From positions 1 through 39,324 of the forward strand of contig JAQTOI010000006.1 in NCBI GenBank assembly GCA_028713415.1: a DNA stretch of 39,324 nt. The letters are read 5' to 3'. The translations under genes and the position numbers were made by a program. The first letter of the stretch is position 1. Every line of letters starts with the position of its first letter. Source of the DNA: Candidatus Omnitrophota bacterium. Lineage in GTDB: Bacteria > Omnitrophota > Gorgyraeia > Duberdicusellales > 4484-171. Shown piece after piece: positions 13,832 to 39,324 of this stretch. The notes under the pieces are model-generated. The model saw nothing but the letters and a program-made list of their open reading frames with translations. It made no database searches and was not told the origin of the DNA.

Positions 13832-14764
13832 ATGCAGGAAAAATTTTTAAATAAAAAACAGAGCAATCTCGTTTTTGGCTTTAGCCTTGCGATTATTGCT
13901 TTATGCGTGCTGTTTATCGTAAGCTCACTAGGCGCCGAACTTGCCTACAATTCAGCTTCCTCAAAAGTCTACCCAACTTTAGCCTCTGAGAGATTTTCTT
14001 ATTATAATAATGTTTTGACTTTGGTGGCATCTGCGGCTTCTCGCAGGAAAGATAATTCACAATACCTGGCTAAAGAAGCCGATTATTTTTTTAAAGCAGT
14101 CGAAGAAGGCTTAGGCCCTATTTTGCACCTTGACGAAAGTAAAATAGAAAATTTATATAGGCGCGCGATACAATTAAACCCCCTTAATTATCAATATCAT
14201 TTAAAACTAGGGTGGTTTTACGCGCAAACTAAAAAAACTCAAGCTGCGGAAGAAGAATTGATTAAGGCTACTGAATTATACCCTACTGACGCACAAGCTT
14301 ATTTATATTTAGGAAAGTTTTACTTAAAAAATAAAAGAGAATGGCTCGGGTTTAAGAACTTGCTTATCGCTTTTTATCATAGCGTTGAGCATTGGCAGAT
14401 ATTTGATGAAGCCCAAACAGATATGATAGGGCTTTCGCAAGTTTCATCGGACCGCGCAGGACATTTTATGCGTTATATTTTTTATCCGCTTCGTAGCACC
14501 TTTGATTTCAAGGAAGAAGGTTTTCCTCCGCTCACAATTGCGCTTAATATAAGAGTTTACATGAAAGATTCTCCCGAAGAAGTCGCTCTTCTTTACCGGG
14601 CTATCCATTACCAGAACTTTAAGAAAATAGAATCGTCCGAAGGATATAATGTATACGAATTTCTCTTGAACACATTTCCGCCAAAAACAGACCTTTCTAA
14701 TTTCAGTATCGGGACTAAACCTTCTTCCCTCATGGAAAAAGTGGAAATTACCTATGCATTTTAA
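13832..14764 (+). CDS. Membrane-anchored TPR-like protein of the EPS locus
   Basis: 310 residues. The ATG directly follows the stop of the Wzy-like gene and has no separate ribosome site, so coupling is likely. There is one transmembrane anchor at ~14-36. TPR units lie at ~108-175 (for example LYRRAIQLNPLNYQYHLKLG and the following repeat with LYPTDAQAYLYLG). The C-terminal third has no recognised domain. TPR proteins fused to, or encoded beside, Wzy-type polymerases are common in EPS loci, and this may be a partner of the upstream polymerase. It is the last gene of the EPS block. Confidence 0.75.
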   Translation: MQEKFLNKKQSNLVFGFSLAIIALCVLFIVSSLGAELAYNSASSKVYPTLASERFSYYNNVLTLVASAASRRKDNSQYLAKEADYFFKAVEEGLGPILHLDESKIENLYRRAIQLNPLNYQYHLKLGWFYAQTKKTQAAEEELIKATELYPTDAQAYLYLGKFYLKNKREWLGFKNLLIAFYHSVEHWQIFDEAQTDMIGLSQVSSDRAGHFMRYIFYPLRSTFDFKEEGFPPLTIALNIRVYMKDSPEEVALLYRAIHYQNFKKIESSEGYNVYEFLLNTFPPKTDLSNFSIGTKPSSLMEKVEITYAF

Positions 14765-14802
14765 ACCACTCCTGAAATAAATAAAATATTTGCTTTAAAC
14801 GC

Positions 14803-14946
14803 TATAATTGCTAAAATAAAGCCTTCGCGGACGCCTCAGGCCTAGATGGGGTGAAACTAAATTATAAATTCTGTGTATAGGGCTAGGGCTTATGATACTT
14901 GTTTTGTTAGTTTCGTAAGCTATTTGCTTATTGAAGGAGGAGAAAA
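14803..14946 (+). promoter_or_regulatory. Leader of the tRNA-binding protein gene, with a -10-like element and a stem
   Basis: TATAAT stands at 14803-14808 without a recognisable -35 at the right spacing. Further down, GAAACTAA (~14853-14860) is the exact complement of TTAGTTTC (~14907-14914), so the leader can fold. A strong GAAGGAGG Shine-Dalgarno sequence follows at ~14934. It matches no riboswitch consensus I know. Confidence 0.35.
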
Positions 14947-15267
14947 ATGATAAGTTACGATGATTTTTCTAAGCTGGATTTACGCATCGGTAAGATTATA
15001 GAGGTGAGCCTTCACCCTAACGCCGATAAGTTGTATCTTTTGAAAGTGGATATCGGCGAAAAAGTTGTTCAGTTGGTAGCAGGCATCCGCGCCTTTTATG
15101 CCCCAGAGGGGCTTATAGGAAAGTTAGGGGTCATTTTAGTTAATTTGGAGCCGAGAGAAATTCGAGGCTGCCTATCAGAAGGCATGCTTCTTGCCGCCTC
15201 TTCCCCTGAACGCATTAGCGTAATTTCTCCGCTAGAAGATGTGGCGATAGGAAGCAAAGTAAAATGA
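14947..15267 (+). CDS. tRNA-binding-domain protein (CsaA / MetRS beta-subunit-like)
   Basis: 106 residues forming a single OB-fold tRNA-binding domain of the kind found at the C-terminus of bacterial methionyl-tRNA synthetases, in Arc1p/EMAPII and in CsaA. Landmarks are DLRIGKI (11-17), HPNADKLYLLKVDIG (23-37), LVAGI and the C-terminal SEGMLLAA. The length matches a free-standing domain. It either helps a split MetRS bind tRNA or acts as a CsaA-like chaperone; no MetRS gene is present here, so the choice is open. The Shine-Dalgarno sequence is excellent. The stop codon merges into a hairpin repeat that begins at its last two bases. Confidence 0.85.
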   Translation: MISYDDFSKLDLRIGKIIEVSLHPNADKLYLLKVDIGEKVVQLVAGIRAFYAPEGLIGKLGVILVNLEPREIRGCLSEGMLLAASSPERISVISPLEDVAIGSKVK

Positions 15268-15369
15268 GGGGTCGGGGATTTTTCCTAATATATCGACCCC
15301 TCATCCTGAAGCCAGAAGGGCTGAAGGATCCCCTTATGAGATCCTTCGTCGTTTCCCTCCTCAGGATGA
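15266..15369 (+). repeat. Nested palindromic repeat (TCATCCTGA / GAAGGATC type)
   Basis: Three perfect stems are visible. GAGGGGTCG/CGACCCCTC pairs 15266-15274 with 15294-15302. TCATCCTGA/TCAGGATGA pairs 15301-15309 with 15361-15369. Inside the latter, GAAGGATC/GATCCTTC pairs 15323-15330 with 15340-15347. The second and third stems resemble a repeat seen between genes in many unrelated bacteria; that is from memory. The first stem begins within the stop codon of the upstream gene. Confidence 0.7.
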
Positions 15370-15428
15370 CCCCTCGCTAATTAGAAAAAGGTTCGCGATG
15401 GGTCAAGTAAAATGATCTTCAAGTTGTA

Positions 15429-16247
15429 ATGGATTTAACAAAAAACATCGACGATGTTGACTTGGTATTTCTGGATCTTGAAACAACCGGTTTGGATGTG
15501 ATAGAAGGAGATGCTATCTGCGAAATAGGGGCGTTAAAGACCCGTGGCAGAAAAATTAGCGACAGGTTCCAGACTCTGATTAATCCGGGAAAACACATTC
15601 CCCATGAAGTATTTCTGATTCATAAGATATCCGATGACGACGTCAAGGATGCACCACATTTCAGGGATATAGTCGAATCTTTGAAGGCATTCATAAATGA
15701 TTGCGTTGTGTGTGCGTATAACGCAGAGTTTGACATAGGGTTTATAACCCATGAATCCCGCAGAATTCAGTATCAATTATCCGAAATCCCCGCGCTAGAT
15801 ATACTTTCTATGGCGCGAAAAACAATAAAATTGCCCGGGTATAAACTGGATTATACTGCAAGATATTTTAATGTTGATTACAGCACCGGCTTTCATAGGG
15901 CGATGAACGATGCTTTTATCGCGTTTCAAGTTTTCTATAAATTAAGAGATATTCTGCGCAGCCGCAACTTTGATATTCTAGGAGAATATCTTTCGCTTTT
16001 TGGAGTCAATAATGCAGTGTTTCGCTTAAAAGAAGAGCCAAAAATCATTGCCATCAAAGAAGCTATCACTAAAGGGATAAACCTAAAAATACGCTATTTT
16101 TCTTATGAAAATACCATGGAGGAAGAAGAAGTAAAGCCTATTAATTTTTTTCAGGAGCATAAGCATTTTTATCTCTGGTGCCAGAATCTAAAAAATAAAA
16201 GTTTCCGAATCAACGTCAATCGCATATTCGAGATAGAAATCGTTTGA
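15429..16247 (+). CDS. DnaQ-type 3'-5' exonuclease fused to a WYL-like domain
   Basis: 272 residues. The exonuclease domain (~8-175) holds a complete DEDDh active site: D16 and E18 in FLDLETTGL, D102 in NAEFDIGF, H156 and D161 in FHRAMNDA. The remaining ~70 residues (205-272) match the WYL pattern: IKEAITKGINLKIRYFS, then VKPINFF, then FYLWCQN and FRINVNRI. WYL domains bind ligands or nucleic acid in regulators and defence proteins. The fusion suggests a nuclease whose activity or targeting is controlled by that module, or a DnaQ proofreading/repair enzyme with a DNA-contact domain. No Shine-Dalgarno sequence is evident before 15429. The neighbours give no pathway. Confidence 0.8.
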   Translation: MDLTKNIDDVDLVFLDLETTGLDVIEGDAICEIGALKTRGRKISDRFQTLINPGKHIPHEVFLIHKISDDDVKDAPHFRDIVESLKAFINDCVVCAYNAEFDIGFITHESRRIQYQLSEIPALDILSMARKTIKLPGYKLDYTARYFNVDYSTGFHRAMNDAFIAFQVFYKLRDILRSRNFDILGEYLSLFGVNNAVFRLKEEPKIIAIKEAITKGINLKIRYFSYENTMEEEEVKPINFFQEHKHFYLWCQNLKNKSFRINVNRIFEIEIV

Positions 16248-16928: not shown

Positions 16929-17003
16929 TATCAGCGTTCAGCTGTCAGCTATCAGCTTAGAATTTAAGAAGCTGAAGACTGAAAGCGGGTGACTGACGGC
17001 TTA
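16929..17003 (+). repeat. AGCTGATAGCTG-family hairpin repeat
   Basis: Left-arm words (TATCAGC, CAGCTGTCAGCTATCAGCT) face right-arm words (AAGCTGAAGACTGAAAGC, GACTGACGGCT). This is a somewhat degenerate copy of the family also found at 24468, 26302, 30097 and 37870. The right arm ends about ten bases before the ATG at 17014. Confidence 0.7.
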
Positions 17004-24462: not shown

Positions 24463-24467
24463 GAATA

Positions 24468-24553
24468 AGCTATCAGCTCTCAGCTATCAGTCGTCAGCTT
24501 CAGAATCTTAATCTATTCTTCAGCTGAAAGCTGAAGGCTGTAAGCTGATAGCT
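24468..24553 (+). repeat. AGCTGATAGCTG-family hairpin repeat
   Basis: Perfect 11-bp arms AGCTATCAGCT (24468-24478) and AGCTGATAGCT (24543-24553) enclose further AGCTGAAAGCTGAAGGCTG-type words. The right arm ends ten AT-rich bases before the era start codon, which has no Shine-Dalgarno sequence. Confidence 0.8.
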
Positions 24554-24563
24554 TTCTATAAAT

Positions 24564-26300: not shown

Positions 26301-26372
26301 TGAAGCTGATAGCTGAAAGCTGACTGCTGATAGCTATTGCATCTTGAGGCCTGCAGCCTGTAGCCTGCAGCG
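26259..26372 (+). repeat. Compound hairpin repeat overlapping the nitroreductase 3' end
   Basis: The words GCTACAAGCTTCAAGCTGC and GCCACAAGCTTC lie inside the coding sequence; AAGCTGATAGCTGAAAGCTG and GCTGATAGCT follow, then GAGGCCTGCAGCCTGTAGCC. The first and last pieces are inverted relative to each other and match the repeat at 25731-25764. The element ends nine bases before the next ATG. Confidence 0.7.
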
Positions 26373-28592: not shown

Positions 28593-30098
28593 ATGGATAT
28601 TAAGAGACTATTAACGCAGAATGCACTATCACACGCACAAAGAACCGCTGTTATTTTCGCAGATCAAAGAATAACCTTTTCCCAACTCAAAGATAATGCT
28701 TTTACTCTGGCAAATTATCTTATTGGCTGCGGCATAAAAAAGAGCGATAAAGTCGCTTTGTTTCTTTCAAGCACTCCCGATGCACTCTGCAGTTTTCTGG
28801 CAAGTTTCACTATAGGCGGAGTCCTTATTCCGCTTGATTTCATGCTTACCGAAAGCGAGGTAATCCATTTTATTAACCACAGCCAGGCTTCCGTGCTCAT
28901 CACACAGCCAAAAAAAGATGTTAGCCTTACCGCGATAAAGGCTAATTGCCCGAGCCTAAGAGAGATAATTGTCTGTAAGGCTCAAGAAGAAGGCTTTACT
29001 TCCTGGGAAAGTATTTTTGCTAAGCCCCAAACGCATGAGCCGCAAGTTTCCGTAAACGAAAGCGACCTTTCTTCTATTTTTTATACTTCAGGTTCGACCG
29101 GTCATCCCAAAGGAGTAATGCTTACCTATAAGCACCTGGACAATCCGGTTGATACCATTGATCATTTCTTAGGCGTCAGCGATAAAGATATTTTTTTGAC
29201 CGGCGGAATACCTTTCTCGCATTTAGGCGGGCTTGATTATATACTTTTGATGGTGCGCTTTGCTTCCACGCTTGTGTTGATGGAACGCTTCAACCCTCTG
29301 CAGTTCTTAAAAGACATAGAACAGCATAAAGTGACTATTTTCTGCATCGTGCCTTCAATGTATATTGCGATTGTGTCCCTAAAAGAATACGAAAAATTCA
29401 ATCTTTCTTCTTTACGCTACGCGGCTGTCTTCGGCGCCCCCTCATCTCCGGCCCTGCTGCAGCGTTTTCACGCGGCTTGCCCTAAAGCAACGGTTTTAAA
29501 CGGATGGGGAATGACTGAAACCGCAGCCCCCAATACTTACTCACCTTGTGATGAAACTAAAATAAGCAGTATAGGAAAATTTGGTTTTAGAATGACGCAT
29601 AAAATAGTCGATGATGACGGCAATCCCGTAAGTGGCTCTCAAAAAGGCGAATTGCTGGTTAAGGGTGAAGGTGTCATGCCCGGCTACTATAAAGCTCCGG
29701 ATTTAACGGGCGAAGTTTTAACGCCTGATGGTTGGCTTAGGACCGGGGATATTGCCTATTACGATAATGAGGGCCTGATTTATCTGGCAGGCAGAAAGAA
29801 AGATATGATTAAGGTTTCCGGAGAAATTGTATTTTCTTCCGAAGTTGAAGAGAAAATGCAACGGTACCCAAAGATTAAAGAGGTGGCGGTCATCGGCGTG
29901 CCTGATAAGATGCGCGGAGAAGTACCTAAAGCATTTATCGTTGCTAAAGAAAATGAGACTATTGATACGCAGGAGCTAAGAGATTTTTTAAGGGAGAATC
30001 TTGCGCATTTTAAAATACCGCATCACTTTGAGATAGTGGCTGATTTACCGAAGAATAGGGTGGGCAAGATTGATAAAACTAAATTAATTATAAAATAG
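28593..30098 (+). CDS. Acyl-AMP ligase (acyl-CoA/acyl-ACP synthetase, ANL superfamily)
   Basis: 501 residues, full length. The adenylation motifs are present: YTSGSTGHPKG (164-174), GWGMTETA (~304-311), the TGDIAYYDNEG core motif, the hinge with GRKKDMIKVSGE, and the catalytic lysine region NRVGKIDKTK near the C-terminus. The enzyme activates a carboxylic acid as the acyl-AMP and transfers it to CoA or an ACP. As first gene of the run that holds KS-alpha/KS-beta/ACP, it probably supplies a starter acyl unit, as a CoA ligase does in the Gram-negative Photorhabdus anthraquinone cluster. The starter cannot be named. It has a GGGGGGAG ribosome site and its own promoter with palindrome. Confidence 0.9.
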   Translation: MDIKRLLTQNALSHAQRTAVIFADQRITFSQLKDNAFTLANYLIGCGIKKSDKVALFLSSTPDALCSFLASFTIGGVLIPLDFMLTESEVIHFINHSQASVLITQPKKDVSLTAIKANCPSLREIIVCKAQEEGFTSWESIFAKPQTHEPQVSVNESDLSSIFYTSGSTGHPKGVMLTYKHLDNPVDTIDHFLGVSDKDIFLTGGIPFSHLGGLDYILLMVRFASTLVLMERFNPLQFLKDIEQHKVTIFCIVPSMYIAIVSLKEYEKFNLSSLRYAAVFGAPSSPALLQRFHAACPKATVLNGWGMTETAAPNTYSPCDETKISSIGKFGFRMTHKIVDDDGNPVSGSQKGELLVKGEGVMPGYYKAPDLTGEVLTPDGWLRTGDIAYYDNEGLIYLAGRKKDMIKVSGEIVFSSEVEEKMQRYPKIKEVAVIGVPDKMRGEVPKAFIVAKENETIDTQELRDFLRENLAHFKIPHHFEIVADLPKNRVGKIDKTKLIIK

Positions 30099-30172
30099 CT
30101 ATCAGTCGTCAGCCCTCAGCTTTTTAATTCTTTGCTGAAAGCTGATAGCTGTAAGCTGAAAGCTGAAACAAA
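30097..30172 (+). repeat. AGCTGATAGCTG-family hairpin repeat
   Basis: The stop codon TAG of the AMP ligase is itself the start of the repeat (TAGCTATCAG, 30096-30105). The right arm contains GCTGAAAGCTGATAGCTG and AAGCTGAAAGCTG. Here the repeat is followed by a normal AAAGGAG ribosome site. Confidence 0.75.
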
Positions 30173-30184
30173 GGAGTTAATACC

Positions 30185-30910
30185 ATGATGCAACGAGATG
30201 TACATTTACACGCGCAAGGGTTGCTTGGTTCATTACAATTTAAACCGGGAGATTTCGGAGAAATCGGCATTATCTCAGGACAGATGCAGAGAGCCCAGAG
30301 ATGCCTTCAATATCTGGAAAATCCTGTTAAGAATTTTACTTTTTTAGGCTATACTTTCTGGACCGGCACATATAAGGGGAAGAAAGTCACCGTAGGTAAC
30401 GGCGGTTTTTTTGCTCCGGATTCAGCGTTTGTTACAGAAATTTTATGCGTAGGAGGAATACAGCAGCTTATCCGTTTAGGCTCCTGCGGCGGACTTAAGC
30501 AGGAGATGACTACCGGTGATTTTGTAGTTGTGGATAAAGTGATTAGAGGAGACGGAGCGACACGCTATTACGTCGAAGATAACTTCATCCCCCAAGTTGA
30601 TAAAGGCTTAACCAAAGGGCTTGTTGAAATTTTTAAAAAAGTTGGGACAGTATATCAAGGCGCCTGCTGGACTACCGACGCCATGTTCAGGGAGACAAAG
30701 GAAATTGTTAACCCCTACATAGAAAAAGGCGCTATTTGCGTTGATATGGTAACTAGCCCCTTTGTGACTGTCGCCAATATTTATAAGAGAAAAGTTGCCG
30801 CGGTTTTGGTTATTTCCGATAACCTGATTACCGGAGAAATGGGTTTTGCTGACTTTCGGCTTTTTGAAGCGGAAGAGAAGATGACCAAGGAAGTATTTGG
30901 GATTATTTAG
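30185..30910 (+). CDS. Nucleoside-phosphorylase-superfamily protein with altered ribose site
   Basis: 241 residues with the PNP/UDP phosphorylase fold. IIS-G-QMQRA (29-37) stands where the phosphate-loop GDPxR normally is, keeping Gly and Arg. RLGSCGGL (97-104), GDGATRYY (122-129), TTDAMFRE (163-170) and VISDN (209-213) follow the family. The usual V-E-M-E, whose second Glu holds the ribose hydroxyls, is VDMV here (186-189), so the ribose contact is lost or different. The Asp of ISDN, catalytic in purine phosphorylases, is kept. It may cleave or bind a ligand that is not an ordinary nucleoside. Its place inside a polyketide run suggests a role in tailoring or precursor supply; this is inference. 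The Shine-Dalgarno sequence is strong. Confidence 0.75.
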   Translation: MMQRDVHLHAQGLLGSLQFKPGDFGEIGIISGQMQRAQRCLQYLENPVKNFTFLGYTFWTGTYKGKKVTVGNGGFFAPDSAFVTEILCVGGIQQLIRLGSCGGLKQEMTTGDFVVVDKVIRGDGATRYYVEDNFIPQVDKGLTKGLVEIFKKVGTVYQGACWTTDAMFRETKEIVNPYIEKGAICVDMVTSPFVTVANIYKRKVAAVLVISDNLITGEMGFADFRLFEAEEKMTKEVFGII

Positions 30911-31011: not shown

Positions 31012-31275
31012 ATGTCCGAAATAACCTGGAGCGTAAAAGCCAAAGAAATATTCGATAAAGTGATTACTAATCTTCCCCAGTTTCACCGCAGTATCGCACA
31101 AAAATTAGTGAAAGCATCAGCCGAAGAAATCGCTAAAGCCAAAGGCTTAAGCAGTGTTGAAGAAAAAGAGCTTATTGAGGCTTTTTTCAAAGAAATTCCA
31201 CCTGCATTTAAGGATATGATGAAAAGATTATTTACTAAACTTAACATTAATTATGAGCAGCATGGCATTTCTTAA
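31012..31275 (+). CDS. Stand-alone PCP_red-like small protein
   Basis: 87 residues with a clear AAAGGAG ribosome site. The first ~60 residues follow the pattern of the PCP_red domain at the C-terminus of the light-independent protochlorophyllide reductase subunit BchB/ChlB: ITWSVKAKEIFDKV, then P-x-F-x-R (PQFHRS), then a helix ending in AKGLSSVEEKELIEA. In BchB this helical domain lies next to the substrate site. Free-standing copies exist in non-photosynthetic bacteria with no known role. Its place between the phosphorylase-like and reductase-like genes suggests an accessory to redox or ligand handling in this pathway. The assignment is by pattern only. Confidence 0.65.
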   Translation: MSEITWSVKAKEIFDKVITNLPQFHRSIAQKLVKASAEEIAKAKGLSSVEEKELIEAFFKEIPPAFKDMMKRLFTKLNINYEQHGIS

Positions 31276-31316: not shown

Positions 31317-32960
31317 ATGAAAATAGCAATCATCGGTTCAGGAGCAATAGGAGCGTTAGTCGCAGGCTACTTTAGAGAAAAAGGCGAGAGTGTAATTCTT
31401 ATCGGCCATAAAGATGCTGTTAGCGCGATAAGTAAAAACGGCCTGAAAATCAGCGGTTGCCGCGGTAATTTTAATATCAAGGTAGACATTTTTGAAAGGC
31501 TTAGCAGCAAAGTTGATTTAATAATTTTAGCCACTAAAACGCAGGACATCGAAACCGCGTTAACAGAAAGTAAAAGCTATCTAGAAAATACATTTATTTT
31601 AACCACACAGAACGGAGTGGAAGCGGACAATATCGTAGCCGGTTTTATCCCCAAAGAGAATATAATTTCAAGTATAGTAATGTTTGGCGCCACTTACTTG
31701 GAGCCGGGCAAGATAATACATAATTTTGACAGAAAATGGGTAATCGGTAAGCCGTTTAGCGAGAACGATAACTCCGTAAAAAAAATAGAAGCGCTGCTTA
31801 GCAAAATTTTCCCTGTTGAAATCAGTAATGACATCAAAGGGATGAAATGGCTTAAGGTTTTCGCTAATTCAAATAATTGTATTCCCGCCATTACCGGAAA
31901 AAGTATGCAGGAATGTTTCGCGAATGCTGAGCTTTGCGAAATAAGCATAGGGATTTGGCAGGAAGGTTTAGGCGTTATCAAAGCCTCCGGCATAAAACTT
32001 ATTGATTTGCCTGATTTCAAGGTTGAACAGGTCAGAAAACTTACCTCTTTACCCATCAGGGAAGCGGCAAGGATTTTCTCTGGGATAATGATAAATTTAA
32101 GCAAAGAGCCCTTATATGGCTCGATATTGCAGAGCATTAAACGCGCCCGGCCTTCAGAAATAGATTATATTAACGGAGCATTTGTCGCTTTGGGCAGAAA
32201 ACATTCCTATCATACGCCATTGAATAAAAAATTAGTAGAATTGGTGAAAAAGGTAGAAAAAGATAATAAATTTTTGAGCGTTGAAGAATTAATCGCAAAG
32301 ACCAAGAATTTGATTCCCCGGCAAGAAGAGGCTAGCGGCGATAAGGTTAATACGCCGTTTCCTAAGCTTAAGCTAACCGTGATGAAAGTCGAAGGTGATT
32401 GTTACCATGGATATAAAATAGGCGATGAAATAATACTGGAAGATTTTACTCATCCACCGAAACATTTCTGCCTTGGCCTGGCGCACGCCTTATTTCCCGT
32501 GATCTATGCCTTGAGTTTCGGCGCAAAATTCCCGTTTAGGGACAATCAGCGTTCTTTGCTCGTAACTTGTCCTGATGGAGGAAAACTTGAATTTAAAGCA
32601 GAAATTTTTAATAAAGAAGGAAAAATAGAAACAATAGACAAAGACCCTAACCATAAGGGGCCTAATCCCAAAGATATGATTCTAGAGGTTGTGCAGGCAA
32701 AAGGAAAATGCGCGTATAAATACAATCTTGGCGATAAATTTGAAGTTAAAGGGTTAAAGTGCCCGGAGGGCTTTTGCGGTGCAGCATATCACTGTGCGTT
32801 TCCGGCACTTTTTGCACTTAACTTCGGAGCAAAATTTTTCTTTATGGACGATCCGAATGGTATTAACACAGTAACCTGTCCGGACGGCGGGAATATTGTA
32901 TTTAAAGTGAGTAGAAAAAACGCAGATACACGCGGGAACAACGCAGATATACGCAGATAA
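31317..32960 (+). CDS. Ketopantoate-reductase-like enzyme fused to two TIGR04076-like domains
   Basis: 547 residues. The first ~330 form a PanE/ApbA-type NAD(P)-dependent reductase: the dinucleotide motif GSGAIG (7-12), LATKTQD (~78-84), TTQNGVEADN and a C-terminal helical domain with KVFANSNNCIPAITGKSM. Two copies of a ~80-residue domain follow (~349-430 and ~453-533). Both show the TIGR04076 pattern: a short strand with V..V.G.C, Y..GD, a central Cys, P...AL.FGA.F, and TCPDGG. The Cys-rich copies may bind a metal or a thiol-reactive ligand; their role is unknown. The last thirteen residues (from 535) are encoded by an intergenic repeat. The enzyme could be the ketoreductase of the polyketide run, but its own family reduces 2-keto acids, so this is uncertain. 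Confidence 0.8.
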   Translation: MKIAIIGSGAIGALVAGYFREKGESVILIGHKDAVSAISKNGLKISGCRGNFNIKVDIFERLSSKVDLIILATKTQDIETALTESKSYLENTFILTTQNGVEADNIVAGFIPKENIISSIVMFGATYLEPGKIIHNFDRKWVIGKPFSENDNSVKKIEALLSKIFPVEISNDIKGMKWLKVFANSNNCIPAITGKSMQECFANAELCEISIGIWQEGLGVIKASGIKLIDLPDFKVEQVRKLTSLPIREAARIFSGIMINLSKEPLYGSILQSIKRARPSEIDYINGAFVALGRKHSYHTPLNKKLVELVKKVEKDNKFLSVEELIAKTKNLIPRQEEASGDKVNTPFPKLKLTVMKVEGDCYHGYKIGDEIILEDFTHPPKHFCLGLAHALFPVIYALSFGAKFPFRDNQRSLLVTCPDGGKLEFKAEIFNKEGKIETIDKDPNHKGPNPKDMILEVVQAKGKCAYKYNLGDKFEVKGLKCPEGFCGAAYHCAFPALFALNFGAKFFFMDDPNGINTVTCPDGGNIVFKVSRKNADTRGNNADIRR

Positions 32961-33023: not shown

Positions 33024-34280
33024 ATGAAACGAGTCGTCATTACAGGCATCGGTGTTATCAGCGCAGCAGGCGAGGATAAGAATACGTTTTATAATAATCT
33101 TATCGCAGGTAAGCCTTTTATCGAGCGAGTGGAGAATTTTGACGTAAGTTTGTTTGTTTCAAAAATTGCCTCGCAGGATTTGGGTTTTGATCCTTTAAAG
33201 TTTGGGATAAAAGACCATGCGCGCATGGATAGATACGTTCAATTCGGCATAGCCGCTGCAAAGCAGGCAGTCGAGGATGCAAAAATTGATTTTGACAAGA
33301 TAGATACCAGGCGCTGCGGAATAATTTTAGCTAATGCCATTTGCGGGACACGCTTTATGGAAGAAGAATTCCTTCTGGTGACTGACTGGGGCAAGAAACC
33401 CATTGACCCGCGAAAAGGCAGGCCCTATTTGTATGACGCGGCCATGTTTAATACCCCAAGTGCAGAGATTGGCGCGATATACGGCACGCGCGGCTTAAAC
33501 TGTACCGTTTCGACCGGCTGCACTGCCGCCACAGACTCACTCGGTTTTTCTTTTGAACTTATCCGCGAAGGAAAGCAGGATATGATTATTGCCGGAGGCA
33601 CAGAAGCTCCGGTCTGCCCGATAACCTTTGGCGCGTTTGATGTGGTTAACGTACTTGCGAAAAATAATGATGAGCCGCATAAAGCCAGTAGGCCTTTCGA
33701 TAATAAAAGAAACGGATTTGTCATTTCTGAAGGCGCCGGGGTTTTGATTCTGGAAGAGCTTGAACACGCAAAAAAACGCAGCGCGCACATTTATGGCGAG
33801 ATAGTCGGTTACGGCACAAGTTGCAATGCATATCACATGACGGATTTACCTGAAGATGGAGAGGCCATGGAGCGCTGCATCAGGGACGCGATAACTGATG
33901 CCGGCATAAAGAATGAAGATATAGATTATATCAATACGCATGGTTCCTCAACCCGCCAGAACGACGTATTTGAAACTAATGCCTATAAAGCAGTATTCGG
34001 CGATTATGCGTATAAACTTCCCATTAGCTCGGTTAAGGGAATGATTGGGCATCCTCTGGCAGCGGCAAATGCGGTTGAGAGTGTTTTGTGCGCGATGATT
34101 TTTGAAAAAGGTTTTTTGCCGCCTACGATAAACCAGGAAGAGCCTGACCCAAAGTGCGACTTAGACTATATTCCTAATGTAAAACGCGAGTACATGCCCA
34201 AATACATATTAAAAACAAGCAGCGGATTTTCGGGAATACATTCATCGATTATCTTTAAAAGATGGGCGCATAATAAATAA
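33024..34280 (+). CDS. Type II polyketide ketosynthase, KS-alpha
   Basis: 418 residues. The active-site Cys166 lies in STGCTAATDS, the form seen in aromatic type II PKS ketosynthases (compare STGCTSGLDS in the actinorhodin KS) and not the usual FabF form. His306 in NTHGSST, Lys338 and His343 in SSVKGMIGHPLAAA complete the set. The stretch QND..ET (312-318) and DPKCDLDY near the C-terminus are further hallmarks of KS-alpha. The enzyme extends the ACP-bound poly-beta-keto chain together with the KS-beta encoded two genes downstream. Unusually, an exported esterase gene separates the two, where actinobacterial clusters have them adjacent. A GAAGGAG site precedes the ATG. A primary-metabolism FabF is much less likely because of the matched KS-beta, ACP and aromatase. 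Confidence 0.93.
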   Translation: MKRVVITGIGVISAAGEDKNTFYNNLIAGKPFIERVENFDVSLFVSKIASQDLGFDPLKFGIKDHARMDRYVQFGIAAAKQAVEDAKIDFDKIDTRRCGIILANAICGTRFMEEEFLLVTDWGKKPIDPRKGRPYLYDAAMFNTPSAEIGAIYGTRGLNCTVSTGCTAATDSLGFSFELIREGKQDMIIAGGTEAPVCPITFGAFDVVNVLAKNNDEPHKASRPFDNKRNGFVISEGAGVLILEELEHAKKRSAHIYGEIVGYGTSCNAYHMTDLPEDGEAMERCIRDAITDAGIKNEDIDYINTHGSSTRQNDVFETNAYKAVFGDYAYKLPISSVKGMIGHPLAAANAVESVLCAMIFEKGFLPPTINQEEPDPKCDLDYIPNVKREYMPKYILKTSSGFSGIHSSIIFKRWAHNK

Positions 34281-34287
34281 TAGGCTG

Positions 34288-35319
34288 ATGATGAGAAAGA
34301 AAATCGGTATCGTTATAAGTATTATCGCTTTAACAGGAGTTTCCCTTTCCGTGGCAAATGCCCAGGGACTTTTAAGAGAAAGGATAAAAGAGAGGATTAA
34401 GGAAAGAAGAGCGGATTCCGAAAGAAAAAATGATCCCACTTTTTTTATTATGCATCAAGGGATAACAAGAGAATATAAAGTACACCTTCCTTCAGGCTAC
34501 AATAAAAACACGACTTTTCCCTTGGTAATATTCTTGCACGGAGGCGGGGGAAGCATGCAGGAAGTTTACAAAGAAGGGATGGATAAAATGTCTGACAAGC
34601 ACAGTTTTATTTTGGCAATACCCCAAGGTTCAGGTAAGAAAATATTAGGCAAAACAATCGGCTCATGGCATTCGGGAAATTGGAGCGGCTGGAGCACGCT
34701 TAACCCCGGTTCTTCCTGCTGTGGCTATGCGGGCGAAAATAATATCGATGACGTCGGTTTTATCGCAAAAATGATTACCGAAATCAAGAAAAATTATGCC
34801 GTTGATGAAAAAAGAATTTATGCCACAGGAATTTCAAACGGCGCCATGATGTCATATCGATTAGCGTGCGAACTTTCAGATACCATCGCTGCCGCAGCAC
34901 CCGTTGCTCCTCCGTTTGTGCCGGAAGTTTGCGCACAATGTCCCTTGCCTGTTTCGATAATCCATACGCAAGGCACCGCTGATCCTTGCGCGCTTTATGA
35001 AGGCGGTACATGCGACAGTTGTTTGGGAAGCAAACCCATAGCCGCGCAATCAGCGAAAGGCATGGTTAATTTCTGGGCCAAAAAGAACGCCTGTTCCACG
35101 GAGCCAACAACCATATATAAGAAAGGTAATGCACATTGTGAGCTATACGCGCAGTGCCAGGGAGGAACTGAAGTAGAATTTTGCACCATTGAAGGCGGAG
35201 GCCACACCTGGCCGGGCGGTACACAATATTTACCCGCAAGCAAGATCGGCCCAGTTTCTCATGACATATCATTTGATCAAATCTGGGAATTCTTACAAAA
35301 ACACAGGTTACATAGCTAA
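34288..35319 (+). CDS. Exported alpha/beta-hydrolase esterase, LpqC/PHB-depolymerase-like (copy 1)
   Basis: 343 residues. A signal peptide (hydrophobic ~7-23, cleavage near ANAQG) is followed by a very basic helical linker (RERIKERIKERR, 30-41) and the hydrolase domain. The oxyanion region is FLHGGGGSM (82-90). The triad is Ser183 in GISNGAMM, Asp232 in GTADPC and His306 in GGGHTWPGG. Many Cys in the second half suggest disulfide bonds in the periplasm. Relatives are feruloyl/PHB-type esterases that act outside the cytoplasm. Position between KS-alpha and KS-beta strongly implies a role linked to the polyketide, for example cleaving or transferring an ester after export. It starts seven bases after the KS-alpha stop; no good Shine-Dalgarno sequence. 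Confidence 0.85.
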   Translation: MMRKKIGIVISIIALTGVSLSVANAQGLLRERIKERIKERRADSERKNDPTFFIMHQGITREYKVHLPSGYNKNTTFPLVIFLHGGGGSMQEVYKEGMDKMSDKHSFILAIPQGSGKKILGKTIGSWHSGNWSGWSTLNPGSSCCGYAGENNIDDVGFIAKMITEIKKNYAVDEKRIYATGISNGAMMSYRLACELSDTIAAAAPVAPPFVPEVCAQCPLPVSIIHTQGTADPCALYEGGTCDSCLGSKPIAAQSAKGMVNFWAKKNACSTEPTTIYKKGNAHCELYAQCQGGTEVEFCTIEGGGHTWPGGTQYLPASKIGPVSHDISFDQIWEFLQKHRLHS

Positions 35320-35343
35320 CCATAAAATAAGCAGGAGTGATTT

Positions 35344-36576
35344 ATGAAAGAAAGAGTCGCAATTACCGGCATCGGAGTTGTTTCACCGGCAGGCTTGAAA
35401 AAAGAAACCTTCTGGGCAAATTTAAAAAGAGGCGAGTCATTTATTGATGAAATTACCCGTTTCGATACAGCGCTGTATCCTTCACGTATTGCCGGCCAGG
35501 TCCATGAGCTTGATCACTACTCGCATTTATCCAGCCGTTTAGTAAAAAAGATAGATGTTTTTTCGCATATGGCGCTGGTCGCCAGCGAACAGGCACTTCA
35601 GGATGCAAAAATAGATTTAACCATGGTCGATAAAAAACGCATGGGCGTTTTTATGGGTAATGCCATAGGCGGCTGGCTATTTGCAGAAACTGAACTGCGC
35701 GATATGTATATTGAGGGAAGAGAAGGCGTTTCTCCCTATATGGCTTCTGCCTGGTTTCCCGCAGCGCCGCAGGGCCAGATTACGATTTACTACGGCTTTA
35801 AAGGATACAGTAAAACCATAGTCGCGGATAAGGCTTCCAGCGCACTTGCTCTTTGGTACGGCGCAAAAAATATCATTGACGGAAAAAACGATTACATTTT
35901 AGCCGGAGGGATGGAAGCGCCCATTACGCCTTACGCCTTACTTAGCTCTAATTCCTGCGGTCAATTATCAAAAAATAACCTCAACCCCAAAACTGCCTAT
36001 AAGCCGTACGATTTATACCGGGACGGATTTGTGCTTGGAGAAGGCTCGGGTATCGTGAATCTTGAAAAAGAAGAACACGCCAAGAGGCGAGGCATAAATA
36101 TTTATGGGTATATTAAAGGAATAGGCTTTTCCTCGGATGGGTATCATTACTCACGTTACAGCCCGAAAAGTGAAATGTTTGAATACGCGATTGAAGAGTG
36201 CCTGAAAGATGCGGGTTGGTCAAAGAAAGAAATAGATTATATCTGCCTTGACGGTGAGGCAACACCCATGGGCGATTATCTGGAAACTAAAGCATTAAAG
36301 AACGTTTTTGGCAAAGGACTTAAAGATATCAGCTTAAGCGCGCCAAAAAGCATGTACGGCAACCTGTTGGGCGCGCAGACAGCCCTGGATCTAATCGTTA
36401 CTTTATTCTCAATGAGTAATAGCCTGGTGTTACCGACGATTAATTACCAGATGTCTGATCCATATTGCGATTTAGATTATACGCCTAACGTTGCCCGCGA
36501 GAAGAAAATAAGTAAAGCTTTATTACTTGCGCGAGGCCGAGGCGGGATAAATGTGGTGCTTGCGGTTGAAAAATAA
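35344..36576 (+). CDS. Type II polyketide chain length factor, KS-beta
   Basis: 410 residues, a ketosynthase fold with all catalytic residues lost: the Cys is Ala164 (VADKASSALAL), the first His is Asp303 (ICLDGEAT) and the second is Asn340 (KSMYGNLLG), while Lys335 is kept. His-to-Asp and the C-terminal LLLARGRGGIN, equivalent to the LVLARGRWGFN of actinobacterial chain length factors, show that this is a true KS-beta. Typical KS-beta carries Gln at the Cys position; Ala is unusual. It should form a heterodimer with the KS-alpha (33024) and set chain length. A GGAG site lies before the ATG. The esterase gene on each side is the oddity of this operon. Confidence 0.92.
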   Translation: MKERVAITGIGVVSPAGLKKETFWANLKRGESFIDEITRFDTALYPSRIAGQVHELDHYSHLSSRLVKKIDVFSHMALVASEQALQDAKIDLTMVDKKRMGVFMGNAIGGWLFAETELRDMYIEGREGVSPYMASAWFPAAPQGQITIYYGFKGYSKTIVADKASSALALWYGAKNIIDGKNDYILAGGMEAPITPYALLSSNSCGQLSKNNLNPKTAYKPYDLYRDGFVLGEGSGIVNLEKEEHAKRRGINIYGYIKGIGFSSDGYHYSRYSPKSEMFEYAIEECLKDAGWSKKEIDYICLDGEATPMGDYLETKALKNVFGKGLKDISLSAPKSMYGNLLGAQTALDLIVTLFSMSNSLVLPTINYQMSDPYCDLDYTPNVAREKKISKALLLARGRGGINVVLAVEK

Positions 36577-36599
36577 GCCACAACTGTATTTTCTAAAAA

Positions 36600-37613
36600 A
36601 TGTTTAACATACAATCAAACCCAAAGATATGGCTTAAATTTATTATTGTTATAATCATTTTACTCTCATGCCCTATTTTTATCTATGCGCAAACAAGACT
36701 TGGAGAAAGGATACGTGAAAAAATTAATCAAAGGCGTCAGGACCGCATAGCAGAAGAAAGCCTTATCGGTCAAGACATTGAGAAATCAATCGTAGTTGAT
36801 GGAATTAAAAGAACTTATATTATCCATTTGCCCCCACGATACAAGAAAGTTAAAATCTACCCTATCGTATTTGTTTTCCATGGCGGAGGCGGAAACGCTG
36901 AGAATGCAATAATGATGAGCGGGATGAGCGAAAAAGCAGATAAAGAGGGCTTTATCGTTGTCTACCCCAACGGTACCGGAAGATTCAAAAACCGTTTTCT
37001 TACCTGGAACACGTGGAATGGTTGCGGGTATGCCTTCGAGCAAAACGTCGACGACGTTAAATTTATAAACAATCTTATTGAAAAGTTAGGGAAAGAATTG
37101 AATGTAGATTCTAAACGCGTATTCGCTGCCGGCATGTCAAACGGAGGAATGATGGCATATCGATTGGCCTGCGAATGCTCAGATAAAATCGCGGCCATCG
37201 CCTCTGTTTCTGGGGCACTCAATAGTGAAAATCCGAATCCCGCCTTTCCAGTCTCGATTATCGCATTCCACGGCACGGCTGATAACAATGTGCCTTATAA
37301 CGGCGGCACTGGAAAGAGATCTATCGAAAAAAACAGGGTTGATAAGCCCGTTTCTTACGCAATAAATTTTTGGGTTAAATACGATGGATGTAACACAACA
37401 CCTATTCGAGAAGAATCAGGAAATATTATTCAAGAAAGATACACAGGCGGAAAGGAAGGAACTGAAGTGCTGCTTTATACGGTAAAAGGCGGCGGCCATG
37501 CCTGGCCAGGCGGAAAGGCTGGTCGGACCAGTGGCAACGTGGATCAACCAACACAGGAGATTTCTGCCACTGATCTTATGTGGGAATTTTTCCAAAAACA
37601 CCCAAAACCTTAA
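36600..37613 (+). CDS. Exported alpha/beta-hydrolase esterase, LpqC/PHB-depolymerase-like (copy 2)
   Basis: 337 residues and a paralogue of the 34288 protein. The signal peptide (~11-30, IYAQT end) is followed by a basic linker (RLGERIREKINQRRQDR, 33-49), similar to copy 1. Catalytic residues: FHGGGG (93-98), Ser180 in GMSNGGMM, Asp228 in GTADNN, His300 in GGGHAWPGG. Copy 2 has fewer Cys than copy 1. Both copies flank KS-beta, which suggests duplication within the cluster and a specialised pair of activities. The linker may bind an anionic surface or partner. There is no Shine-Dalgarno sequence. Confidence 0.83.
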   Translation: MFNIQSNPKIWLKFIIVIIILLSCPIFIYAQTRLGERIREKINQRRQDRIAEESLIGQDIEKSIVVDGIKRTYIIHLPPRYKKVKIYPIVFVFHGGGGNAENAIMMSGMSEKADKEGFIVVYPNGTGRFKNRFLTWNTWNGCGYAFEQNVDDVKFINNLIEKLGKELNVDSKRVFAAGMSNGGMMAYRLACECSDKIAAIASVSGALNSENPNPAFPVSIIAFHGTADNNVPYNGGTGKRSIEKNRVDKPVSYAINFWVKYDGCNTTPIREESGNIIQERYTGGKEGTEVLLYTVKGGGHAWPGGKAGRTSGNVDQPTQEISATDLMWEFFQKHPKP

Positions 37614-37636: not shown

Positions 37637-37867
37637 GTGGCAATAAAAGAAGAAGTCTTAAGCGCAATCGCTGACATTCTTGATGTGGATGCTGCAAAAG
37701 TAACGGCAGATAAGAAGTTATATGACTCAATAGGCGTGGATTCAACCGAGATGGTTGAGCTCTGTGTATCTTTGGGTAAGCGTTTCGGAGTAAAAATCGC
37801 TACCAATGAAATTACAAAGTTTTCAACACCGCTTGAGATTATGCAGGTGATTGAGAAGAAAAAATAA
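37637..37867 (+). CDS. Acyl carrier protein of the type II polyketide system
   Basis: 76 residues starting at GTG 37637, seven bases after AAAGGAGG; an upstream ATG in the same frame (37580) lies inside the previous gene and lacks such a site. The phosphopantetheine serine is Ser36 in GVDSTEMVEL, in the usual D-S-x-x-x-V/L setting. Four-helix length is normal. The adjacent KS-alpha, KS-beta and cyclases make this the carrier of the growing polyketide. No phosphopantetheinyl transferase or malonyl transferase is seen in the window, so these must be elsewhere (possibly the fatty-acid enzyme is shared). Confidence 0.92.
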   Translation: MAIKEEVLSAIADILDVDAAKVTADKKLYDSIGVDSTEMVELCVSLGKRFGVKIATNEITKFSTPLEIMQVIEKKK

Positions 37868-37944
37868 ATAGCTATCAGCTTACAGCTGTCAGCTATCAGC
37901 TCAGAACCAAGAGGCTGAAGACTGAAAGCTGACGACTGATAGCT
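37868..37944 (+). repeat. AGCTGATAGCTG-family hairpin repeat
   Basis: Outer arms AGCTATCAG (37870-37878) and CTGATAGCT (37936-37944) are perfect complements, with AGCTGTCAGCTATCAGCT and AGACTGAAAGCTGACGACTG words between. It ends nine AT-rich bases before the cyclase ATG, which has no Shine-Dalgarno sequence. Confidence 0.8.
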
Positions 37945-37953
37945 CATTATATT

Positions 37954-38751
37954 ATGCAAATCATTGACCTAAGCCTTCCCATTGACGATAAAGCTTTTGA
38001 GGTGCATCACGTAGAGATTGAGCGTGTAACGCACAAGGCTGGCGTTGAGAAGTTCAACCGTGTGCTGATGAGTAAAACCCTCAAGGGCAAACTACAATAT
38101 CTTTTGGGTAAGCGTATAGTTAAAAAAGAAGATTTACCCGATGAAGAGTTTTTATCTTTAGAAATAGTGCATTCCCCGGTGCATATCGGAACGCACCTTG
38201 ATTATTCGTTTCATTACGGTTCAAAATCAGAAGGAAGAGCTTCTAAAACTGCCGAAGAAATCCCTTTAGAGTGGTGTTATCAGGACGGCGTAAAGCTTGA
38301 TATGGCGCATAAAAAGCCGGCTGAAGCAATAAATGCATCTGATATTGAGGCGGCCTTAAAAAAAATAAACTATACGCTTAAGCCCCTTGATATTGTACTA
38401 ATTCAAACAGGTGCTGATAAACTTTATGGTGGCCCTAAATATTTCAGCGACTATCCCGGCATCGACGTTTCGGCGATAAATTTTCTTTTGGATAAGGGCA
38501 TTAAAATCTTTGGCGTGGATACCATGGGCATAGACAGGCCGTATCGCTTCATGCTCAAAGAATTCATGGAGACAAAAGACCCGAAAAAATTATACCCGGC
38601 ACATTTTTACGGCAGAAAAAGAGAGTTTATCCACATAGAGCGATTGGCGAATTTAGAAAAATTACCCAGTTTTGGTTTTAAAATCAACTGCTTTCCGGTG
38701 AAAATAAAATGTACCGGAGCAGCTTGGGCAAGAGTAGTGGCTATTTTATAA
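37954..38751 (+). CDS. Cyclase-family metal-dependent hydrolase (kynurenine-formamidase fold)
   Basis: 265 residues. The metal-site motif H77-x-G-T-H81-x-D83-x3-H87 (HIGTHLDYSFH) is exact for Pfam Cyclase (PF04199). Other family parts are VDTMGIDRP and an aligned His/Glu later in the chain. The family includes kynurenine formamidase as well as proteins named cyclases in antibiotic clusters. Here, right after the ACP and before an aromatase, a ring-closing or product-modifying role in polyketide folding is likely, but hydrolysis of an ester or amide is also possible. The start follows a hairpin repeat. Confidence 0.85.
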   Translation: MQIIDLSLPIDDKAFEVHHVEIERVTHKAGVEKFNRVLMSKTLKGKLQYLLGKRIVKKEDLPDEEFLSLEIVHSPVHIGTHLDYSFHYGSKSEGRASKTAEEIPLEWCYQDGVKLDMAHKKPAEAINASDIEAALKKINYTLKPLDIVLIQTGADKLYGGPKYFSDYPGIDVSAINFLLDKGIKIFGVDTMGIDRPYRFMLKEFMETKDPKKLYPAHFYGRKREFIHIERLANLEKLPSFGFKINCFPVKIKCTGAAWARVVAIL

Positions 38752-38902: not shown

Positions 38903-39324
38903 ATGGGCCATACAGCAAATTCCATAGTTATCAACGCTCCATATGAGAAAATATTCGATATTTCTAACGATATCACCCGCTGGACAGAACTATTCGGAGG
39001 AGAGTATAAAAAGTCGGAAGTAGTAAAAAAAGAAGGTAACAAAATAACGTTTAAGCTTGCTGACGATGAAGGCCGCTCGTGGCAGTCATGGCGCCTGTTA
39101 TTTAAAGATAAATACCTGGCCTACGCAGAGAGAGAAGAACCGAAATTCCCTTTTAAGTTTATGAAAATTATCTGGCTTTATACGCCGCGTCAAAACGGAA
39201 TTGAATTGACCTGGATTCAGCATTTTGAAATGGATGAAAAAGCAAAATTTAACGATGAACAAGTAGAAGGGTTCATTAACAAGCATTCGAAAGATAATTT
39301 GAAGATATTTAAGGAAGTTATTGA
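38903..39324 (+). CDS. Polyketide aromatase/cyclase, SRPBCC superfamily, WhiE-ORFVI-like (3' partial)
   Basis: The ATG at 38903 follows ACGGAGG by eight bases. The frame stays open for 140 residues to the right edge, so the gene is truncated by the window. The protein starts MGHTANSIVINAP and continues with DISNDITRWTELF, SWQSWR, FKFMKIIWLY and LTWIQHFEMD, the order and spacing of single-domain aromatases of spore-pigment and tetracenomycin-type clusters (compare GHTDNEI, TNDIERWPELF and W-Q-x-F-x-M of WhiE ORFVI). Such enzymes bind the reactive poly-beta-keto chain in the helix-grip fold and close the first aromatic ring. This is the strongest single clue that the product is aromatic. Missing length is probably small (~15 residues). 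Confidence 0.9.
   Translation, partial: MGHTANSIVINAPYEKIFDISNDITRWTELFGGEYKKSEVVKKEGNKITFKLADDEGRSWQSWRLLFKDKYLAYAEREEPKFPFKFMKIIWLYTPRQNGIELTWIQHFEMDEKAKFNDEQVEGFINKHSKDNLKIFKEVI

Follow-up and report, generated by a model that had tools for sequence, protein, structure and literature searches.

Why does a type II polyketide synthase (PKS) operon of a Candidatus Omnitrophota bacterium hold two genes for exported-looking esterases among its ketosynthase and carrier-protein genes? The window, which is the whole stretch of DNA analysed here (39,324 bases), is one complete contig (C6) of a 2.17 Mb metagenome-assembled genome, itself 94% complete. On its + strand, KS-alpha, EST1, CLF (KS-beta), EST2, ACP, a cyclase and an SRPBCC protein follow one another, closely packed. 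The first-pass annotation had listed an alternation of KS-alpha, esterase, KS-beta, esterase and ACP, and the open reading frames are indeed found in these places; the range it gave, 34288-37613, leaves out KS-alpha and ACP. We consider it likely that the esterases are optional secreted enzymes, a recent addition made twice to an old, class-wide PKS operon, and that they probably act on environmental esters.

Table 1. Genes of the PKS cluster in the window, with the matches on which each assignment is based.
Feature	Coordinates	Strand	Basis
AMP-dependent acyl-CoA ligase; opens the conserved cluster	28593..30098	+	NCBIfam acyl-CoA ligase matches; position kept in most relatives
PNP/UDP-phosphorylase family protein, probable 5'-deoxynucleoside phosphorylase	30185..30910	+	PF01048
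Small conserved protein	31012..31275	+	Weak DUF2621 / PCP_red match; position conserved
Ketopantoate-reductase-like oxidoreductase fused to two TIGR04076 repeats	31317..32960	+	Profile matches
KS-alpha (ketosynthase)	33024..34280	+	PF00109/PF02801
EST1, exported-looking CE1/PHB-depolymerase-like esterase, between KS-alpha and CLF	34288..35319	+	NF050058, 153 bits
CLF (KS-beta / chain-length factor)	35344..36576	+	Lys163 in place of the catalytic Cys; neither His kept
EST2, second exported-looking esterase, separate origin	36600..37613	+	NF050058, 184 bits
ACP (acyl carrier protein), GTG start	37637..37867	+	PF00550; conserved GVDS serine motif
PF04199 cyclase-family protein	37954..38751	+	PF04199; position conserved
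SRPBCC polyketide cyclase/dehydrase-like protein, truncated at the end of the contig	38903..39322	+	PF10604/PF03364

KS-alpha has its catalytic residues Cys166, His306, Lys338 and His343. In the alignment across loci, His and Lys are present in 50/50 sequences and Cys in 49/50, with one gap. Its top solved match is 6smo_B (3.5e-108), which we take to be the Photorhabdus ant complex, and the actinorhodin KS 1tqy_A follows among FabF enzymes. In the second ketosynthase, the Cys is gone from all 51 sequences (the window and 50 related loci), replaced by Lys or Arg, and the two catalytic His are changed to Asp and Asn; classic CLFs have Gln in place of the Cys. Since this second KS lacks the Cys and both His, the KS-alpha/CLF assignment is correct. 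A discrete ACP adjoins the pair. One listed frame for it starts at 37580 and overlaps EST2; the GTG at 37637 is preceded by a strong ribosome-binding site, AAAGGAGG, and agrees with the start in relatives, so we place the gene there. The operon is thus classified as a type II PKS, with a predicted aromatic polyketide as its product.

The intergenic gaps from KS-alpha through EST1, CLF and EST2 to ACP are 7, 24, 23 and 23 nt, and several genes of this core have clear ribosome-binding sites. From this spacing, the core genes including both esterases are probably co-transcribed. Matches in a promoter and terminator scan were no more numerous than in shuffled sequence. Both esterase genes are similar in GC to their neighbours, and reading frames and spacing run on continuously; with GC and GC3 alike resembling those of the surrounding genes, we rejected a recent foreign origin by composition. 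The same continuity across the junctions speaks against a mis-assembly that would have placed the esterases in the operon, an idea that arises because the window makes up an entire contig of a genome assembled from a metagenome. Two other assemblies hold esterases at the same two junctions, and we regard such an error as extremely improbable. Intergenic heptamer repeats, AGCTGAN, occur in the window at 16931-16957, 24466-24555, 26304-26330, 30109-30166 and 37868-37901; they number 20, where shuffled sequence would give 0.95.

Both esterases exceed the 150-bit cut-off of NF050058, the NCBIfam model for extracellular type-1 short-chain PHA depolymerases. Among solved structures, sequence and predicted fold both put them closest to the Aspergillus acetylxylan esterase 9j07, the PHB depolymerase 8daj and to feruloyl esterases. 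EST1 was modelled by AlphaFold with moderate confidence (mean pLDDT 68.5, pTM 0.73), so its fold match backs the family and not a substrate. The Ser-Asp-His motifs lie on an alpha/beta-hydrolase fold, as judged from the alignment and the fold match of the EST1 model: Ser183, Asp232 and His306 in EST1 are conserved in EST2, and the intact triads claimed at first pass are therefore borne out. The claim of exported proteins is plausible from the sequence: each N-terminus has a hydrophobic stretch and an Ala-Gln junction, followed by a charged R/K/E-rich segment. On the strength of these signal-peptide-like N-termini, EST1 and EST2 are probably exported.

The NF050058 match of EST1 reaches residue 317 of 343, and domain profiles detected no C-terminal polymer-binding domain after the catalytic one. 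As the match takes up almost the whole chain beyond the N-terminus, there is no space for the binding domain of true PHA depolymerases. The genome of the window gave no match to the PHA synthase PhaC either, and with both elements missing we rejected a role in PHA turnover. EST1 and EST2 thus resemble the NF050058 depolymerases and the CE1 acetylxylan and feruloyl esterases (9j07, 8daj, 8jh8) in catalytic-domain sequence, predicted fold, Ser-Asp-His motifs and apparent export; they differ from them in that the C-terminal substrate-binding domain is missing, the genome gave no PHA synthase match and the genes lie inside a PKS operon. We classify them as putative exported CE1-like esterases, their substrate being guessed from fold relatives.

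How constant is this arrangement among relatives? CLF occurs in 28/37 genomes of the window's family and in 127/384 genomes of the class, about a third. Of the 50 class-wide loci that have both genes, 45 have no more than 300 nt between KS-alpha and CLF; the first-pass remark that the two are normally adjacent, and truly interrupted here, was right. The five non-adjacent cases are the window, L058 of genome G017 (with two tandem esterases), L066, L110 and L112; in the last three KS-alpha and CLF are separated, yet by no esterase. The default operon order in the class is KS-alpha, CLF, ACP, cyclase, SRPBCC. At one locus, L116 (G064), CLF has no KS-alpha found beside it, and the upstream gene is an acyl-CoA ligase on the opposite strand.

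When 51 loci were compared with 27 esterases, only the window, L057 and L058 proved to have an esterase in the operon, in three arrangements: KS-E-CLF-E-ACP in the window, KS-E-E-CLF-ACP in L058/G017 and KS-CLF-E-ACP in L057/G034, where a single esterase follows CLF, ahead of ACP, and no esterase separates KS-alpha from CLF. The alternation had been taken for a meaningful conserved order, to be checked in relatives; there, PKS genes with no esterase between them prove to be the rule, at 48 of 51 loci. Even within the window's genus, L056, whose operon is complete from acyl-CoA ligase through SRPBCC and whose CLF is 92% identical to that of the window, carries no esterase; its genome, 85% complete, gave no NF050058 match. 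Unrelated open reading frames occupy the junctions of this operon in other genomes too. Other exported-looking proteins, with no Pfam match, stand directly after CLF in other families (L110 9754-11196 and L125 8472-9863).

The esterase family itself is more widespread. It is found in 41/384 genomes of the class, and only five of its genes, from three genomes (the window's, G017 and G034), lie inside the operon; those of G017 and G034 fall just under the NF050058 cut-off, at 141-148 bits. Twelve unlinked esterase loci revealed no common neighbourhood and no link to PKS genes. With so few genes in the operon among 384 genomes, and unlinked loci that share no neighbours, the esterases are not required by the polyketide pathway.

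The two esterases had also been described as paralogous. They are homologous, at about 40% identity, and not each other's closest relatives: the tree places them with different partners, which led us to reject a matched sister pair. WIN_EST1 forms a sister pair with G017_ESTa, G017_ESTb forms another with G034_EST, and these four make up one clade (support 100/98); the partner of WIN_EST2 is an unlinked esterase of genome G116, from another family (support 99/97). Because the two groups fall apart in the tree, the operon gained esterases at least twice. The CLF tree unites the window, L056, L057 and L058 in a single clade (support 97/97), which leaves two histories: an early gain with a loss in L056 and a later gain of EST2, or repeated gains.

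All five operon copies retain the triad motifs in the alignment. Among the esterase-bearing genomes, KS and CLF share about 89-93% identity and the operon-resident esterase clade 44-71%. Purifying selection is measurable in one esterase pair, ESTb, with a dN/dS of 0.11 against 0.03-0.06 for KS/CLF and dS near saturation; synonymous sites of the EST1/G017a pair are saturated. With the triads retained in all five copies and purifying selection seen in this one pair, at a nearly saturated dS, the operon esterases are not decaying.

We propose that esterase genes were inserted at operon junctions at least twice within the small clade that holds the window. One gene, of EST1 type, would then have undergone duplication, relocation or loss, depending on the member of the clade; a second, of EST2 type and of a different origin, would have joined in the window's lineage. 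Transcribed with the operon and exported, the esterases would cleave esters outside the cytoplasm, and these esters would most likely be environmental or plant-derived. Synthase genes for the cytoplasm that alternate with exported hydrolases tempt one to see a pathway design; here they reflect gene gain in one small clade. The gains may still not be indifferent. Two separate arrivals in one stretch of a few kb, in a genome of 2 Mb, hint, by an argument made post hoc, at a benefit of co-expression. An EST1 clade that stays resident while shifting junctions, together with the separate EST2, exceeds what random insertion would easily give and points to a functional link.

Such a link could consist in a lineage-specific tailoring outside the cell: the polyketide would leave the cell in the form of an ester or a precursor, to be hydrolysed or trans-esterified there by the esterases. 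This is the first-pass suggestion of a product that is exported and then esterified, hydrolysed or polymerised, narrowed to the present clade. Tight packing with likely co-expression, separate recruitment by one operon on two occasions and the purifying selection all agree with it, and an MFS transporter gene in most relatives' clusters fits export (the window's contig stops before that point). The same core lacks an esterase at all the other loci surveyed, the same-genus L056 among them; position and copy number vary, and the family lives elsewhere unlinked to PKS genes. We therefore think tailoring unlikely, and we are equally doubtful that the repeated recruitment marks a clade-specific extracellular maturation, in which the anaerobic polyketide, otherwise common to the class, would for example be deacylated or cross-linked through esters.

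Less probable still is a supply of starter units, in which a secreted feruloyl- or acetyl-type esterase would release an acid for the cluster's acyl-CoA ligase to activate as PKS starter. The closest folds are of acetylxylan and feruloyl esterases and the cluster begins with that ligase, but the ligase is conserved even in loci with no esterase. Optional esterases with an environmental substrate remain the reading we prefer. Near-identical cores with 0, 1 or 2 esterases offer a natural comparison that could reveal what these enzymes contribute.

The first-pass annotation had suggested a comparison with the hydrolases of Photorhabdus. AntI is a chain-shortening lyase that works on an ACP-bound chain (PMC12186476). 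Its structures, 6HXA and 9GLF, are absent from the esterases' sequence matches up to 0.001-0.01 and from the 50 fold matches listed for the EST1 model, and we rejected an AntI-type hydrolase. The Photorhabdus anthraquinone (ant) cluster is, like the window, a KS-alpha/CLF type II PKS outside actinobacteria; it differs in that AntI acts on the ACP-bound chain, whereas the window's esterases look exported. In its accessible part, a survey of non-actinobacterial type II PKS loci already catalogues KS-CLF pairs of Candidatus Omnitrophica (PMC10132072); that part does not describe the window's gene content or its esterase insertions. Loci of this kind share with ours KS-alpha, CLF and ACP together with cyclase-type enzymes. 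Omnitrophota clusters typed as 'ladderane' have been reported (PMC9902471). A limited literature search yielded no published description of this PKS-esterase arrangement.

The core operon is more interesting than its esterases and merits a study of its own. In it, a type II PKS stands together with genes of deoxynucleoside-salvage type and a B12 radical-SAM enzyme. The ketopantoate-reductase-like gene and the TIGR04076 repeats, fused in the window, are separate genes in most relatives. Genes resembling a DHAP shunt for deoxynucleoside salvage (PNP, MtnA-like, class II aldolase and aldehyde dehydrogenase) occur in the class-wide cluster at L108, L110, L111, L113-L115, L118 and L121; the window's part is the PNP-family gene, whose top solved match is the 5'-methylthioadenosine phosphorylase 1jds (5.8e-22). 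Most of these loci also carry a B12-binding radical-SAM protein, and the salvage genes may recycle the 5'-deoxyadenosine that such an enzyme releases. In L058, the radical-SAM protein at 14071-15549 has BchE and HpnJ as its closest models, with scores far under their cut-offs, and possibly performs oxygen-free ring chemistry on the polyketide.
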